The notes under the pieces: model-generated
Database searches by the model: none
Told to the model about the DNA's origin: nothing
What the model saw: the letters and a program-made list of their open reading frames with translations, nothing else
Origin: a virus
Direction: 5' to 3' (one strand)
Virus record (IMG/VR): IMGVR_UViG_3300046001_004501
Span: 1-20,894 of that record
Length of the DNA: 20,894 nt
Program-made: the position numbers and the translations under genes
Shown here: positions 8,201 through 14,785 of the stretch, in pieces
Position numbering within the stretch: position 1 is the first letter of the stretch
Layout: each line of letters opens with the position of its first letter

Positions 8201-9824
8201 GGCGGCCAGCAAAATACCTCAGCGCGCGCCCATCGATCAGATCCTGAATAAGCTGAAGGGGTCGCCCAATGTCAAAGCGGAGGAGCTTGATCTATCAGGC
8301 GCTCGAGATGCTTTTGCTGGGCAGAAGAGCGTGGATCCGAAAGAGGTTGCGTCGCATCTACAAGCGAAGCTCCCACAAATTAAGGAGACTGTTTACGGGG
8401 GGAAACCGCCGGTAAATCATCAAGCCCAATGGGACGAAGACGAAGAGGGGCGCGAGAATTATATTGTTGGTCCGTCTTATCTTGGTGATTTTCATAGAAT
8501 CTACGAAGACGCGCGGAGACAGGGTCAAACTACATACGAATTATATGAGCCGACTGGCCGCCATATGGGCGATTATAATAGCATGGAGGAAGCAGAAGAA
8601 GCCGCCAATCGCAGCATTTCGAACATGCCGGAGACAAGATACGACGAATACAAAATTCCGGGTGGAAGCAATTATCGCGAAGTTGTGATGCATCTCCCTG
8701 AGAATAAGCCAACAATAAAATATCGCGTTCACTTCCCCAACGGTCGTTCGGTTATGGTGGATAGCGAAGAGCGAGCAAGAGGCGTTGCAAATGTTTTTGA
8801 AGGGTCAACCATTGAAGAACGCCCACAGACGAGTAATCTTGATTATAAATCTTCTCATTGGGATGAAATGAACCCCGTAGCCCATCTTCGCCTAGCAGAC
8901 CGCGACAACGGAAAAACTTTGCATGTTGAAGAACTTCAAAGCGATTGGGGTCAGGCCGCGCAACAAGCGCGCAAAAAGGAAATCAAAAGAATTGCAAAAG
9001 AGCAGGGCATAAAGAAGGAAGAGGCCGCCAAAGCTGTCCCGCAAGATTTCGCCTTCTCGTCTGGCAAGCTTCCTGTTGGCCCGCATGTGACCGATACGAA
9101 AAGCTGGGTAGATCTTGGCATCAAACGCGCTCTGATGGAGGCGGCAAAGGGCGGCTATGACCGTGTTGTATTTACTCCCGGCGAAGAGCAGGCGAATAGA
9201 TATAGCCTGAGTAAGCACATAAAGGGCGTCTCCTACGACCCTGAAGAAAAAACTCTGTCAATTATGCATCACAACAGCAACAGAGGGTATCGCGATATCC
9301 CCGGCGATATAGAGCCGGAAGATCTTGAGGAGCATATCGGCAAAGAAGCGGCAGAAAAGCTTCTTGCAACAGAGCCGCATCCTTTGAGCGGAAATCACAT
9401 TCTTGAAGGCCAAGACCTTGAAGTCGGCGGCGAAGGAATGAAAAAGTTCTATGATAGTTTGCTTCCTAATCAGATCCGCAATCTTGTCGGAAAATATGAC
9501 AAGGAAGCAAAATTATCGCTATTTGGTCATGAAATAAATACGGGCAAGCACACAGGATTTGTCTCTGGCGACAAGGTTATGGAAGATCTTCCTGAAACAA
9601 AACACATGCGCCCAGACGACAAGGCCGATTGGTGGCGCAATCTTACGCAAGATAAGCGAGACCAACTGATTAGTGATTTTAGAAAAGGACGAACTTTTAA
9701 GGTCCATTCGCTCGAGATCACGCCAAAGCTGCGCGCCGCGATCCTCAAGGGTCTGCCGGCTTTCGAGCATGGTGGAGCTGTCGTTGACCGGGCTTTTGAT
9801 GTATTATCCAAGCTTCCGCGCTAA
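5232..9824 (+). CDS. Giant multidomain phage protein with polyvalent-type domains
   Basis: A 1530-residue protein, the largest in the window, translationally coupled to the portal and preceded by GGAG. Residues 1-65 are a glycine-rich leader. Residues about 185-420 form an unidentified domain (SFRGELEPSFYID, FGFQQDQTV). Residues about 450-700 are a helical domain with LLGITSQGND and FGPKIGSFINNLHGDY, resembling a domain repeatedly seen in phage structural polyproteins. A glycine-rich junction at 905-965 leads to a linker starting MGFYSAAAEAA (982). Residues about 1140-1512 form a second domain with NYREVVMHLP (1147), SHWDE, VEELQSDW (1232-1239), GYDRVVFTPG (1309) and a terminal ITPKLRA...GLPAF. 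That order matches the large polyvalent-protein-associated domains found in phages and conjugative elements. The activity is unknown. Conserved H1209, E1233/E1234, D1238 and D1310 look enzyme-like. It is probably a virion passenger, and that is inference. No signal peptide or membrane span is seen. Confidence 0.82.
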   Translation: MGSIIDRALDIINDHLKDQTSSFQVSSPMSMGKAMARGGHVLEDDYPTHYLPNVGRQVMAVGGMPEEPIGGALNVARSIPEEGAAIPGPVAPRPPVSPFEGRVQSSKLAETFARENLPGTIVSPRPGKGYGPAITPEHGVRYDEPEYTGVGERGEEPSSHTEFSYATPDIGGMKLPPPVQHPVLNNPRMDRLTDSTAAIMKSKGFKDLFRDHVGLDPAKLKITPTVGSFRGELEPSFYIDHPDMQPEHAQKIGNLLGFGFQQDQTVRTSHNPNIQEGTLAALVGHGRKLSSEDIDNIMKSADKEGLDFTVTKDGKAAKFLHFGDDEEYPDFLDKVGRIADSNKLKERYHARTEGSLIDAQDYLSGLFGGHSGGEGVQEGTGRSPDLFGRVVDHVLAPFAKAVAGEGYRLSPERLQEAYGLTDDETDKVRQSLLPTSKGDRTTVPLMTGEEQLDIRPTGAHGKSTVDDVLYALQNRAAQKGQIEPGDYSDEAKKLIANDIAKEVKYHVDNSSKSAIGWYDTALKKAKNVYHQIFPELKTNKDNELLFDALLGITSQGNDVYNNSVHAARLYDKIRNGASVKDATQSLRGTFGDKTRAIEQNLNKFHHLIETNGYDKMRDMFNQTKTVSEWRKILNSDPNMRGPNGEKLTVKGASDQKITGWSVFGPKIGSFINNLHGDYSTLTADLWFSRTWNRLLGHNFIHAPLNEQKQYQDFRDAFKQEFLHNNGFPFERIPYALEGGQPKYKSGKLVPWEHGRDTKGMTYGEFEDIYNDPDKLKDYAQGIYKKFSTASKGVPAFSEKSDLRRRAKNWMENRELSQAAPRGDSERSFQQNTVEEAQKLLKKKYGLNISVADIQAALWFHEKEMFGKFGVASERAKPADYEDAAAKTMELINKGELYRVKSKEKTGKAFGGAITPIELGGRDLDDEARRLILWSYAAAPIVRPLSRAEGGSVDDPVDKALNIVGAGSTPASAVETARNLTPMGFYSAAAEAASKIPQRAPIDQILNKLKGSPNVKAEELDLSGARDAFAGQKSVDPKEVASHLQAKLPQIKETVYGGKPPVNHQAQWDEDEEGRENYIVGPSYLGDFHRIYEDARRQGQTTYELYEPTGRHMGDYNSMEEAEEAANRSISNMPETRYDEYKIPGGSNYREVVMHLPENKPTIKYRVHFPNGRSVMVDSEERARGVANVFEGSTIEERPQTSNLDYKSSHWDEMNPVAHLRLADRDNGKTLHVEELQSDWGQAAQQARKKEIKRIAKEQGIKKEEAAKAVPQDFAFSSGKLPVGPHVTDTKSWVDLGIKRALMEAAKGGYDRVVFTPGEEQANRYSLSKHIKGVSYDPEEKTLSIMHHNSNRGYRDIPGDIEPEDLEEHIGKEAAEKLLATEPHPLSGNHILEGQDLEVGGEGMKKFYDSLLPNQIRNLVGKYDKEAKLSLFGHEINTGKHTGFVSGDKVMEDLPETKHMRPDDKADWWRNLTQDKRDQLISDFRKGRTFKVHSLEITPKLRAAILKGLPAFEHGGAVVDRAFDVLSKLPR
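6539..6567 (+). repeat. 12-bp intragenic hairpin in the giant gene
   Basis: TAAGGGGGACCG (6539-6550) pairs with CGGTTCCCCTTA (6556-6567) over a five-base CACAA loop. There are 12 pairs, of which one is G-U. It lies inside coding sequence (around residues 436-446) between the first unidentified domain and the helical domain. No T-run follows, so it is not a standard terminator. The core GGGGACCG is shared with the terminator hairpin at 11262-11296. A role in RNA stability or translation pausing is possible but unproven. Confidence 0.5.
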
Positions 9825-9868
9825 TGCGGGAGCAGGGACGCCTGCATAATTCCGGCTGGAGTTTTAAA

Positions 9869-11236
9869 ATGTCCGAATATTCCGCAAAGAGCTTGCGCGA
9901 GAAGATGAAGGCGAAAGCCCGTTCGCTCGCCGGCGAGAAAGACCAGAAGACTGATTCGAGCGATTGGACCCCTGCGAAGCCGCTGAACGCCAGCGTCAAG
10001 ACAGGCGCGCGTCCGATCATGAAGCCGTCCGCCAAGGGCGTTGGCGAATCAAACGCCGCCCGCGACACCAAGGCCGCCATCGGCAAGGATCTGAAGCGCG
10101 GCGGCTTTAAGCGCGGTGGCGCTGTGAAAGACGCCGGCGTGAAGGAAAAGAAGGCGCTCGGCGCTATCGATCCGTCGCCGAAGCGCGGCGCTGCCCAGCA
10201 TTACAAGAAGGGCGGCAAAATCAAGAAAGAGGGCGGCGGCTGGATCGATAACATCGCCAATGCGCTCGCCGGTAAGGGCTACATCGATGGCTCGACGTGG
10301 ATGCAGAAAGAAGAGCCGATGACGGCCTCTGACGCTGCTGCGCCGGTCTCGCCGCGTCGCGCTGCTGAGCCTGTTCGTCGTGCTGCTCCGAAGCCTGTTC
10401 GCCGCGCTGCTGCGCCGGTAAAGCGCGTTGAGGATCCGCAGTATCCTTATGGCGACAAGACCATTTCCGGTGCTGAATCGCCGATGGCTTCCGGCTCCTT
10501 TATGAAAAAGGGCGGTCGTGCAAAGCGCGCTGATGGTGGCGGCAGCTGGCTCGAGAAGATGGTCGGCAAGCCGAAATCGACAAGCGATCTTAGCCAAGTC
10601 GGCAAGGGCCGCACGTCGTCCTATTCGAGCAGCGACAAGGCGGCTTTGGGCGATATCGCCAAGGGCGGCAGCGGCAGCACACTTCCGTCTGATGAGACAG
10701 AGTTCGGCAAATCGCAGAACTACAAGAAGGGTGGACGTGCAAAGCGCGCGACTGGCGGCTTGATTAACGCTCTGAAGGGCGGCAAGAAAGCGAAAAGCAA
10801 AGGCGCGAAAACCGACATTGTCATCAACATCAATGCTGGACATAAGACACCGATGAAACATCCATCTGAAGCTCCGATGCCGCCGGTTGGCGGTGATGGT
10901 ATGCCGCCGATGCCGACTGCTGGCGCTCCTGCGCCGGCTATGCCGATGGGCGCTCCTCCGATGCCGCCCGGCGCTGGTCTGCTTCCTCCGGGTCGCAAGG
11001 CCGGTGGTCGAATCACCAAGAAGGCTTCGTCCTATAAGGACATGGAAGCTGGCGCTGCGAGCGGCGAAGGCCGTCTGCAGAAGACCGAAATTGCGAGCAA
11101 GCACAAGGATGCTCCGGCCCGCAAAGAAGGTGGCCGAATCACCAAGGTCGCCAAGTCCTATAAGGACATGGAAGCCGGTGCCGCCAGCGGCGAAGGTCGT
11201 CTACAGAAGACAGACATCGCGAAAGGCAAAAAGTAA
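9869..11236 (+). CDS. Basic glycine-rich repeat protein, likely virion-associated
   Basis: A Lys/Arg/Gly/Ala-rich, probably disordered protein of 455 residues. Three copies of a KKGG-(R/K)-x-K-(R/K)-x-x-GG motif occur (near nucleotides 10205, 10505 and 10725). An Ala/Pro/Arg stretch (RRAAPKPVRRAA) follows the first, and a short hydrophobic strand (TDIVININAG) and a Met/Pro/Gly-rich segment follow the third. The C-terminus carries two tandem 42-residue repeats. The charge suggests binding to nucleic acid or packing against DNA in the head, but this is inference. For the start, an ATG at 9824 overlaps the previous stop yet lacks a ribosome site, while ATG 9869 has GGAG seven bases upstream, so I chose 9869. 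Similar low-complexity proteins occur in many phage head modules without known function. A strong terminator hairpin follows. Confidence 0.72.
   Translation: MSEYSAKSLREKMKAKARSLAGEKDQKTDSSDWTPAKPLNASVKTGARPIMKPSAKGVGESNAARDTKAAIGKDLKRGGFKRGGAVKDAGVKEKKALGAIDPSPKRGAAQHYKKGGKIKKEGGGWIDNIANALAGKGYIDGSTWMQKEEPMTASDAAAPVSPRRAAEPVRRAAPKPVRRAAAPVKRVEDPQYPYGDKTISGAESPMASGSFMKKGGRAKRADGGGSWLEKMVGKPKSTSDLSQVGKGRTSSYSSSDKAALGDIAKGGSGSTLPSDETEFGKSQNYKKGGRAKRATGGLINALKGGKKAKSKGAKTDIVININAGHKTPMKHPSEAPMPPVGGDGMPPMPTAGAPAPAMPMGAPPMPPGAGLLPPGRKAGGRITKKASSYKDMEAGAASGEGRLQKTEIASKHKDAPARKEGGRITKVAKSYKDMEAGAASGEGRLQKTDIAKGKK
10994..11233 (+). repeat. Tandem 126-bp coding repeat
   Basis: Two direct repeats of period 126 bp (42 residues) sit at the 3' end of the basic protein gene, at 10994-11119 and 11120-11233. 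The second is cut short by the stop codon. Each encodes GGRITK, then SYKDMEAGAASGEGRLQKT. The protein copies are nearly identical through that block, while the DNA copies differ at several third positions, so the duplication is not recent or has been held by selection on the protein. Confidence 0.8.
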
Positions 11237-12882: not shown

Positions 12883-12891
12883 GGATTGAAA

Positions 12892-13488
12892 ATGGAAACT
12901 ATCTCTCGTCGTCCCGGCAAGTTCGCTTCCGCCGCCAAAGTGAAGCGTGAAGCCGTCGAAGAATCAGTCACAGAAGTCACAGTGACTGCAAATGAAAACC
13001 CGATGAGACCGCCTATGCGCGAAGAAGATTCCCGCGCTGCAGCCGCCAAGCGCGCCGCCCAGCTCCGAGAGCATCTTGGCGACGTTGTCGAAGGTCAGGA
13101 TGACTTCTACATCCCGCTAGATGAGATCCCTGATGGCTGGACGTATGAATGGAAGCGTCACACTACGATGGGTCAGGAAGATCCGGCCTATCAGATCCAG
13201 CTTTTGCGTTCGGGCTGGGAGCCTGTCCCAGCGGCTCGCCATCCTTGGATGATGCCGCATAAAACAGACAGCCAGACGATTCTGCGCAAGGGCATGATCC
13301 TGATGCAGTGCCCGACCGAGATTATCGACGAGCGTCGCGCGGCTGAATTGCGCAAGGCTCGTCTGCAGGTGCGGCATAAGGAGCAGCAGATTGCAGGAAC
13401 ACCGGATGGCACGATGACCCGTGACGACGCTCGCGTCAGGCCGAACATCAAGAAGTCCTACGAGGCTATGCCTATACCAGAGAAGTGA
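12892..13488 (+). CDS. Conserved phage head-module protein of unknown function
   Basis: A 198-residue protein. The first 70 residues are charged and probably flexible. A compact conserved part follows (YIPLDEIPDGWTYEWKRHTTMG, then GWEPVPAARHPWM and MILMQCPTEI). Residues 150-198 are a basic helix and tail. The DEIPDGWTYEWKR and GWEPVPA-x-RHP signatures recur in a widespread phage family encoded just before capsid genes. I know of no proven function for it; a virion or assembly role is likely. Start: ATG 12892 with AAGGA six bases upstream, while a TTG two codons earlier is also in frame. It directly precedes the hairpin/tRNA/HNH island, which separates it from the decoration and capsid genes. 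Confidence 0.72.
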   Translation: METISRRPGKFASAAKVKREAVEESVTEVTVTANENPMRPPMREEDSRAAAAKRAAQLREHLGDVVEGQDDFYIPLDEIPDGWTYEWKRHTTMGQEDPAYQIQLLRSGWEPVPAARHPWMMPHKTDSQTILRKGMILMQCPTEIIDERRAAELRKARLQVRHKEQQIAGTPDGTMTRDDARVRPNIKKSYEAMPIPEK

Positions 13489-13497
13489 TTTAATAGT

Positions 13498-13526
13498 AGA
13501 GCTCTCGATGGTAAATTGAGAGCTCT
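13498..13526 (+). terminator. 9-bp hairpin upstream of the tRNA
   Basis: AGAGCTCTC (13498-13506) pairs perfectly with GAGAGCTCT (13518-13526) over an 11-base loop. It starts ten bases after the preceding stop and ends six bases before the tRNA 5' end. The T-run after it is minimal, so it may be a weak terminator, an RNA-processing element in front of the tRNA, or a boundary of the inserted island. Confidence 0.45.
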
Positions 13527-13532
13527 TGACGC

Positions 13533-13607
13533 GCCCTCAAAACATAGGTAGCGATGTAACCGCCTTGTAAGCGGTAAAGCTCGGCGCAAATCCGGGTGGG
13601 GGCTCCA
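13533..13607 (+). tRNA. tRNA-Thr (anticodon TGT), non-canonical
   Basis: A full cloverleaf can be drawn. The acceptor is GCCCTCA/TGGGGGC (7 pairs, one G-U) and the D-stem ACAT/ATGT. The anticodon stem ACCGC/GCGGT carries loop CTTGTAA with anticodon TGT at 13566-13568. The variable loop is AAAG. The T-stem is CTCGG/CCGGG, one wobble pair, with loop CGCAAAT. Discriminator T and an encoded CCA at 13605-13607 complete it. The anticodon loop is identical to that of E. coli tRNA-Thr(UGU), as I recall it, and should read ACA. Oddities: position 8 is A rather than U, the T-loop starts CGC rather than TTC, and the D-loop is atypical. It may be degenerate, specialised, or a tRNA-like control element. 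The HNH ATG follows the CCA with no gap. Confidence 0.72.
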
Positions 13608-14012
13608 ATGTCGTTAAGACCAGAAACTTTTATTTGTTTAGGTTGCGGTATCGAAAAACGATATCACTATTCTTCATTTGGAAAATTCTGTTCAAATGCA
13701 TGTCAGCGTGAATATACCACCTCTAATTTAGATCGTCTTTTTACGGCTGGAGAGCCAGATATTTATAAGACTAATGCCTCGAGACGTAAGGCTTTAACTA
13801 GAATTAGAGGTCATAAGTGCCAAACATGCGGAATTGAAAATTGGAATAATAAACCTATTATTTTGGAATTAGAGCATATAGATGGAAATTATAATAATAA
13901 TATAATTACTAATCTTGAGCTAATTTGCCCTAACTGCCACAGCCAGACAGATACATACAAAAATAAAAATAAGGGCCACGGACGTCCTTGGAGACGTAAA
14001 TCGGCTGAATAG
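13608..14012 (+). CDS. HNH endonuclease (free-standing, homing-type)
   Basis: A 134-residue HNH nuclease with two zinc sites. The N-terminal treble-clef-like motif uses C10, C13, C28 and C32 (CLGCG, FCSNAC). The HNH core has C71-x-x-C74, LELEHIDGN (E89, H90), N102 and CPNCH (C107, C110, H111). All metal and catalytic residues are present, so it should nick or cut DNA. It is very AT-rich: only 13 of the 60 bases at 13861-13920 are G or C, against 40 of 60 at 14521-14580 in the decoration gene. That points to recent arrival. The ATG abuts the tRNA CCA, and the G-rich strand of the tRNA T-arm and acceptor (13594-13602) is the only ribosome-site-like stretch upstream. It sits between head genes, as homing endonucleases of phages often do. 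Its target is unknown. Confidence 0.9.
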   Translation: MSLRPETFICLGCGIEKRYHYSSFGKFCSNACQREYTTSNLDRLFTAGEPDIYKTNASRRKALTRIRGHKCQTCGIENWNNKPIILELEHIDGNYNNNIITNLELICPNCHSQTDTYKNKNKGHGRPWRRKSAE

Positions 14013-14022
14013 CCGGCACCAT

Positions 14023-14051
14023 TTTACTTTTATGCCTTGTCAATATATAAT
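14023..14051 (+). promoter_or_regulatory. Candidate promoter before the capsid genes
   Basis: TTTACT (14023-14028) and a perfect TATAAT (14046-14051) are spaced by 17 bases in the AT-rich part of the 155-base gap between the HNH gene and the decoration gene. This would drive the decoration and major capsid genes independently of upstream transcription. A second TATAAT at 14114-14119 lacks a convincing partner. AT-rich DNA gives such matches by chance, so support is modest. The rest of the gap holds no credible gene. Confidence 0.35.
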
Positions 14052-14143
14052 TACGCCAAGTCTGAAAAATGGCCTGAGCTCCCCCGGCGTGGAGCATTAA
14101 CTTTTCCCGGTTCTATAATCGCCCCGGCGCGCGATGACAGAGC

Positions 14144-14159
14144 CTCCTGTAAAAAGGAG
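14144..14159 (+). promoter_or_regulatory. Hairpin that could mask the decoration gene ribosome site
   Basis: CTCCT (14144-14148) can pair with AGGAG (14155-14159) across a six-base loop. AGGAG is the core of the ribosome site AAGGAG, eight bases before the ATG at 14168. Such pairing would hide the site and lower or regulate translation of a gene expected to be highly expressed. The stem is only five pairs, so it may be fortuitous. Confidence 0.35.
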
Positions 14160-14167
14160 ATTCCGTT

Positions 14168-14785
14168 ATGGCGAATACAGATGCGCCTTTCGGTTTCCGT
14201 CAATACAGCGGTAACGGGTCTGCCCCGACGTATGAGCAGATCGCCGTTAGCATTGCTTACAATGCTACCGCTATTTTCTTCGGTGATCCGGTAATTCCGA
14301 CTGCCGGTGGCGGTGTGGCGATTGCTCCGAGCACCTCTGCGAGCCGCCCTGATCAGGATACCCCGATCATCGGCGTTTTCGTTGGCTGCAAGTATCTCTC
14401 GACGTCGCAGAAGCGCACTGTTTGGTCGAACTATTGGCCGGGCAGCGATGTTGCTTCCAACCAGACGGTTGAGGGCTACATCATCAACGATCCGAACGCC
14501 AAGTTCGTTGTCCAGACAGACTCCACCGGCCTTGCGCTGGGCGCGGTCAATGGCACGATTGGCTTCACCACAGGTTCGGGCAACACGGCCAATGGCCTGT
14601 CGACCACCTACCTCAACTCGAGCACCCTCAACACGGCGACATACTCTTCTTACAACCCCTTCCGGGTTGTGAGCATTGTTGATGCTCCGCCCGGTTCGCA
14701 GGGCACGTTGTCGAACGGTCAGGCCTACGACTGGGCGATTGTCCAGTTTAACTGGGTTCTGCCGCGTAACTTCAACGGCATTTAA
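14168..14785 (+). CDS. Capsid decoration/stabilisation-type protein
   Basis: A 205-residue beta-rich protein encoded directly before the major capsid gene, opening MANTDAPFGF, a start common in a widespread family of phage head proteins. It is rich in Gly, Ser, Thr, Asn and Val with few Lys. Segments such as AIFFGDPVIPTAGG and IIGVFVGCKYLS look like the beta-barrel of head decoration or cement proteins. It probably coats the outside of the capsid shell at high copy number; this is family and position knowledge, not proof. AAGGAG lies eight bases before the ATG. The stop overlaps the capsid-gene ribosome site (TTTAAGGAG), so the two are co-translated. Composition is GC-rich like the capsid gene and unlike the HNH gene upstream. 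Confidence 0.72.
   Translation: MANTDAPFGFRQYSGNGSAPTYEQIAVSIAYNATAIFFGDPVIPTAGGGVAIAPSTSASRPDQDTPIIGVFVGCKYLSTSQKRTVWSNYWPGSDVASNQTVEGYIINDPNAKFVVQTDSTGLALGAVNGTIGFTTGSGNTANGLSTTYLNSSTLNTATYSSYNPFRVVSIVDAPPGSQGTLSNGQAYDWAIVQFNWVLPRNFNGI

Follow-up and report, generated by a model that had tools for sequence, protein, structure and literature searches.

The T4 endonuclease SegB, a GIY-YIG enzyme, homes in the tRNA region of its phage and cuts inside tRNA genes; it has a late promoter, and a hairpin covers its ribosome site (PMC2988022, PMC13096335). Experiments showed that SegB spreads itself together with tRNA genes, and the placement of a TAAATA late promoter and the ribosome site in one hairpin has been published for I-TevI, segB and mobE (PMC2988022). 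HNH genes also lie among mycobacteriophage tRNA clusters, where the source passages on them propose that they spread those clusters (PMC6409571). The DNA analysed here, a 20.9-kb virus record referred to as the window, encodes terminase, portal, capsid and adaptor proteins, and in it a tRNA-Thr(UGU) and an HNH endonuclease gene occupy the space between a conserved gene A (12886-13488, plus strand) and the capsid module, whose gene B begins at 14168. Like SegB, the enzyme is intergenic and sits in a tRNA region; unlike SegB, it was classed as HNH by PHROGs (E 2e-24) and matched Pfam HNH weakly, below the cut-off. Its zinc-finger HNH family is linked to tRNA-Thr(UGU), its members occurring directly against a complete tRNA and often next to a truncated one. 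It resembles MobA to MobE and Aeh1 MobE in being an intron-free HNH gene, sporadic in occurrence and placed between phage genes. The targets of MobA and MobE are protein genes (39 and nrdB); in the window a tRNA gene adjoins HNH and is its presumed target, and where the MobE ribosome site is hidden by a hairpin, the hiding structure would be the tRNA. The mycobacteriophage HNH genes are likewise situated among tRNA genes, although a target tRNA, a scar or an allele linkage is not described in the passages that concern them (PMC6409571). In the open-access literature searched, we found neither a link of this HNH family to tRNA-Thr(UGU) nor half-tRNA scars nor anticodon-arm alleles.

The tRNA gene at 13533-13607 (plus strand) was left uncalled by default ARAGORN and by Rfam, whose scan of the window returned no match of any kind, while relaxed ARAGORN reported a tRNA-Thr(TGT) at exactly these positions. 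This call was strengthened by a covariance model, R1, trained on 24 other phage tRNA-Thr genes with strong stem covariation and with the window left out, which gave a single match across the whole window, again precisely at 13533-13607 (61.1 bits, E 7.8e-16). Fold energy was uninformative as proof of the tRNA (z -0.7). The gene lacks the canonical U8 (A8 instead) and the TTCRA T-loop (CGCAAAT instead), and standard tools overlook it because of these two unusual features. Such departures, together with the failed calls, could be taken to mean that the tRNA is a dead relic retained only as a leader for HNH; yet all four stems of the cloverleaf pair, the UGU anticodon sits in a normal loop, and a related T-loop, CGCGCAT, occurs in a phage tRNA-Thr(CGT) (L372:4748), which makes a relic quite improbable. 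It is most closely related to other phage tRNA-Thr genes, with 73% identity to the tRNA-Thr(tgt) of Aeromonas phage TS3, and its CCA is encoded. Judged by its sequence, 13533-13607 is a real but aberrant tRNA-Thr(UGU). The CGCGCAT-bearing tRNA is called by ARAGORN and not by Rfam, and phage tRNAs with loops of this kind may be under-annotated. The idea that a changed T-loop confers self-immunity in general, taken from the SegB motif RAWTSGAAC, was set aside given that most HNH-adjacent tRNA-Thr genes have normal T-loops.

The HNH gene (13608-14012, plus strand, 134 aa) retains every zinc and HNH residue that is invariant across its family, has an intact motif and contains no intron or intein. 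Its AT-rich composition (35% GC, GC3 26%) is foreign to that of the neighbouring genes (52-58% GC, GC3 55-73%). The earlier note had reported that the tRNA CCA (13605-13607) abuts the HNH ATG (13608-13610) with no gap, and this was confirmed in the sequence; an in-frame GTG at 13596 is unlikely as an alternative start, having a weak ribosome site. An assembly artefact was ruled out because two metagenome contigs, L002 and L003, share the identical junction, with 100% identity over 6.4 and 5.1 kb. Apart from these identical contigs, no near relative has the junction, and its conservation among related phages is unsupported. In mitochondrial tRNA punctuation an mRNA begins directly after a tRNA; the window departs from that scheme in that the CCA is encoded and the tRNA itself contains a ribosome site that could be used.

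Roughly 160 related loci were collected through capsid and gene A searches, and in most of them only a terminator, a promoter and a leader separate gene A from gene B. A normal tRNA-Thr(TGT) without HNH was found at the same locus in L094, L099, L129/L130/L021 and L152/L153, and HNH is thus present or absent at one site among close relatives, as it is among isolates. L094, the closest relative by gene A (86%) and a relative rather than an ancestor, matches the window up to the last base of the gene A stop codon at 13488, where nucleotide identity stops, and then again from 14011 onward, with 97.6% identity over 164 nt. In L094 the base aligned with 14011 is position 66 of the tRNA-Thr, where the acceptor 3' strand begins; behind HNH the window reads AGCCGGCACCA (14011-14021, plus strand) and L094, which retains the whole gene here, reads AGCGGGCACCA, with the joint pattern AGC[C/G]GGCACCA. 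Because identity resumes at tRNA position 66, the last 11 nt of the tRNA sit directly behind HNH as a scar, the first two bases of which complete the HNH stop codon TAG (14010-14012). By this alignment, 13489-14010 replaced what in L094-like relatives runs from gene A to position 65 of a tRNA-Thr(UGU). That the scar is instead the remnant of a second tRNA, deleted from a tandem array, needs an extra step. The exchange boundaries in the window are consistent with co-conversion of flanking markers, for which the T5-like isolates described below give a strong pattern.

Within the incoming block, 5' of the tRNA, lies a 12-bp hairpin, AGAGCTCTCGAT-GGTAA-ATTGAGAGCTCT (13498-13526, plus strand), for which RNAfold gives -18.6 kcal/mol over 13489-13534; no counterpart was seen in the relatives compared at the locus, and a role as terminator was ruled out by the absence of a T run. 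It recalls the late-promoter hairpins of the HNH family (GTAGAGC-TAAATA...GAGCTCTAC), but its position is upstream of the tRNA. Beyond the scar, the recipient flank (14022-14167, plus strand), common to the window and L094, carries the capsid-module leader and a promoter-like region. Two hairpins in this leader (14078-14095 and 14118-14135) share the loop C[CT]CGG[CT]G[CT]; both are present in 67 of 87 nonredundant relatives, where stem bases vary and pairing is maintained, and the Rfam scan of the window matched neither. The pair has the appearance of a conserved and so far undescribed RNA element. Elsewhere in the window, a long Lys/Ala/Gly-rich ORF (9824-11236) contains two copies of a 111-bp repeat (10986-11222) with 81% identity.

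The site before the capsid module, with gene A lying just upstream, is an insertion hot-spot. In L109-L120, L131 and L078 the same gap holds HNH-type endonucleases on the opposite strand (HNH_3-AP2 where tested), in L017/L142-L145 it holds a longer methyltransferase-like ORF, and in other relatives it holds unrelated ORFs.

Occupied and empty sites could also be compared in phage isolates, and these contrasts serve, as read from their genomes, as natural experiments. In the T5-like phages HdH2, PMBT27 and MET_P1-88 the last base of the HNH gene is the first of tRNA-Thr, and HNH is absent from the T5-like BF23, saus111K and Seafire. The tRNA-Thr genes of the two groups differ at position 5 and throughout the anticodon arm (ACGGT-CTTGTAA-ACCGT with HNH, GTTGC-CTTGTAA-GCATC without it), while differences beyond about position 47 do not track the presence of HNH. 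Across the phage collection the changed arm was found in 7 of 7 HNH-bearing phages and in three without HNH, and the usual arm in 301 records, counts that are not independent since the T5-like records are related. In the Klebsiella phages B01 and EK80, HNH begins 15 nt after tRNA-Thr (its frame is broken in EK80), and a comparison of their tRNA-Thr with the one in GlastoCabaret and Sugarland again places the difference at the anticodon arm. In Salmonella phage SP1a a different HNH and its own unrelated tRNA-Thr replace the BF23-type tRNA-Thr, an arrangement that parallels the window. The T5-like anticodon-arm pattern is not simply transferable to the window itself, since the scar there starts at position 66 rather than at the anticodon and the donor tRNA has CGCCTTGTAAGCG where L094 has TGATTTGTAATCA.

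The HNH family, comprising 93 nonredundant relatives from viral contigs and phages, is found mainly within the tRNA arrays of other phages. With direct neighbours defined as lying within 150 nt and expectation obtained by shuffling tRNA labels inside each locus, tRNA-Thr(TGT) was the direct neighbour of 37 of the 93 members, against 19.8 expected (none of 5000 shuffles was as high, p<1/5000); more than half of the members lie beside other tRNAs or none. The HNH stop frequently lies in the following tRNA or only a few bases away from it, and partial tRNAs are enriched at HNH flanks (20/186 versus 29/930 control stretches, p 3e-5). Upstream of HNH, the 5' tRNA halves mostly break off at positions 25-37 (L420, L292, L472 and L011 among them); downstream, the 3' halves in most cases have their first base at 35-45 (L431, L456 and L484 among them). 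Short CCA-end scars after the HNH stop, as in the window, were also seen in L438 and L426.

A tRNA CCA directly before an HNH ATG, which the earlier note suggested looking for in phage genomes, does recur, but such starts are not confined to HNH. In a survey of viral contigs for ORFs of at least 80 aa starting exactly at a tRNA CCA, three of eight were HNH, the others including DNA methyltransferase and RusA genes, and at a 6-nt spacer after the CCA, where ORFs are common, two of 17 were homing-type endonucleases; specificity of the CCA-ATG junction for HNH is unsupported by these figures (3/8 versus 2/17). In the tRNA arrays of L233 (reverse strand), L221 and L205, the space from one tRNA to the next is taken up by ORFs that start on the CCA of the first and end in or beside the second, and several of these are HNH genes of other families. 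The methyltransferase and RusA starts and the common 6-nt ORFs would be expected if only packing were at work, with gene edges meeting tRNA edges in compact arrays by chance or deletion and with no relation to homing. Packing leaves unexplained the tRNA-Thr(tgt) excess, the tRNA scars and the allele linkage, and we consider it improbable as a full account. The strong departure from chance lies in the linkage of the HNH family to tRNA-Thr(TGT), not in the CCA-ATG adjacency itself.

The claim that the only ribosome-site-like bases lie within the tRNA was borne out, as the only strong Shine-Dalgarno (SD) sequence is GGGGG at 13598-13602 (plus strand) in the acceptor 3' strand, the best anti-SD match for the HNH ATG (-8.4 kcal/mol, 5 nt from the ATG). 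In the predicted fold with the tRNA present, the GGGGG has an unpaired probability of at most 0.04, whereas in an RNA beginning at 13594 four of its five bases are unpaired with a probability of 0.76-0.97. By folding, then, the window has the I-TevI/mobE-type feature of a ribosome site locked in stable RNA structure. Among the 93 family members, 57 have a TAAATA late-promoter-like site within 70 nt before the first ATG, against a background of 4.7%, and in the examples inspected by eye TAAATA shares a hairpin with the SD; taken with the I-TevI, segB and mobE cases (PMC2988022), these hairpins indicate that genes of this type usually have their ribosome site covered by a structured leader. Between tRNA and ATG the window has no TAAATA that could act as a late promoter freeing the site, the spacer being zero; a few others (L447, L424, L446, L431 and L421) also have no TAAATA spacer, their starts lying 0-7 nt beyond a tRNA. 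In these flush members the tRNA may substitute for the ribosome-site hairpin.

Seven of the 93 members start flush, counted as 0-7 nt beyond a tRNA end, and this trait requires six changes on the tree, compared with a shuffled mean of 6.9; well-supported branches force only two, and the inner branches are weak. That the flush junction arose once and was then conserved is unsupported (six changes for seven members), and because they are scattered on the tree, flush starts look recurrent rather than inherited.

These results bear on the control model of the earlier note, in which the nuclease is switched, under selection, by the folding or maturation of the tRNA, the fold hiding the ribosome site or 3' processing yielding a hypothetical leaderless AUG message. 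The part concerning the hidden site stands as a prediction, with the GGGGG locked in the acceptor stem, and it fits both the recurrence of flush starts within the family and the established use of structure-hidden ribosome sites by phage homing endonucleases (PMC2988022). The junction, however, is not conserved, its recurrence is unclustered on the tree, and unrelated genes start at CCA-ATG in the same way. Moreover, the sequence beyond the CCA is coding, so that cuts there would destroy the message. Such cuts past the CCA are the mode of RNase E-type 3' processing. A selected switch is in our judgement unlikely, though hardly negligible; control through the tRNA fold is plausible on the folding predictions, is not needed to explain the arrangement and may be a consequence of homing insertion.

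The flush start is better explained, as far as the comparisons of sequences reach, as the edge of a homing insertion than by tRNA control, and the tRNA-Thr and the HNH gene probably arrived as one homing unit. HNH would act as a free-standing homing endonuclease on tRNA-Thr genes that have no HNH, cutting them, and repair from the donor would copy HNH and the complete tRNA-Thr together, so that the recipient would never be without the tRNA, while a leftover of the recipient's own tRNA would stay behind as the scar. The ATG would lie flush on the CCA because HNH and the donor tRNA are packed tightly into one unit. For its translation HNH would rely on the ribosome site inside the acceptor stem, and since that site is part of the stem, each RNA could be either a folded tRNA or a readable HNH mRNA, which predicts low nuclease output. 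More tentatively, we suggest that the HNH family homes to tRNA-Thr(UGU), cutting near the anticodon arm and supplying a complete, resistant tRNA-Thr, such that target and replacement are the same gene, and that in flush members, the window included, the tRNA replaces the hairpin that hides the ribosome site, so that a transcript would serve as tRNA or as nuclease message.

Homing replacement of this kind would provide a concrete route by which phage tRNAs are swapped and spread, with a selfish nuclease overwriting one tRNA-Thr with another and leaving tRNA halves behind. It would offer one possible reason for the odd, diverged tRNAs and the fragments found in phage tRNA arrays, and it makes testable a model of control in which one RNA is either tRNA or message.
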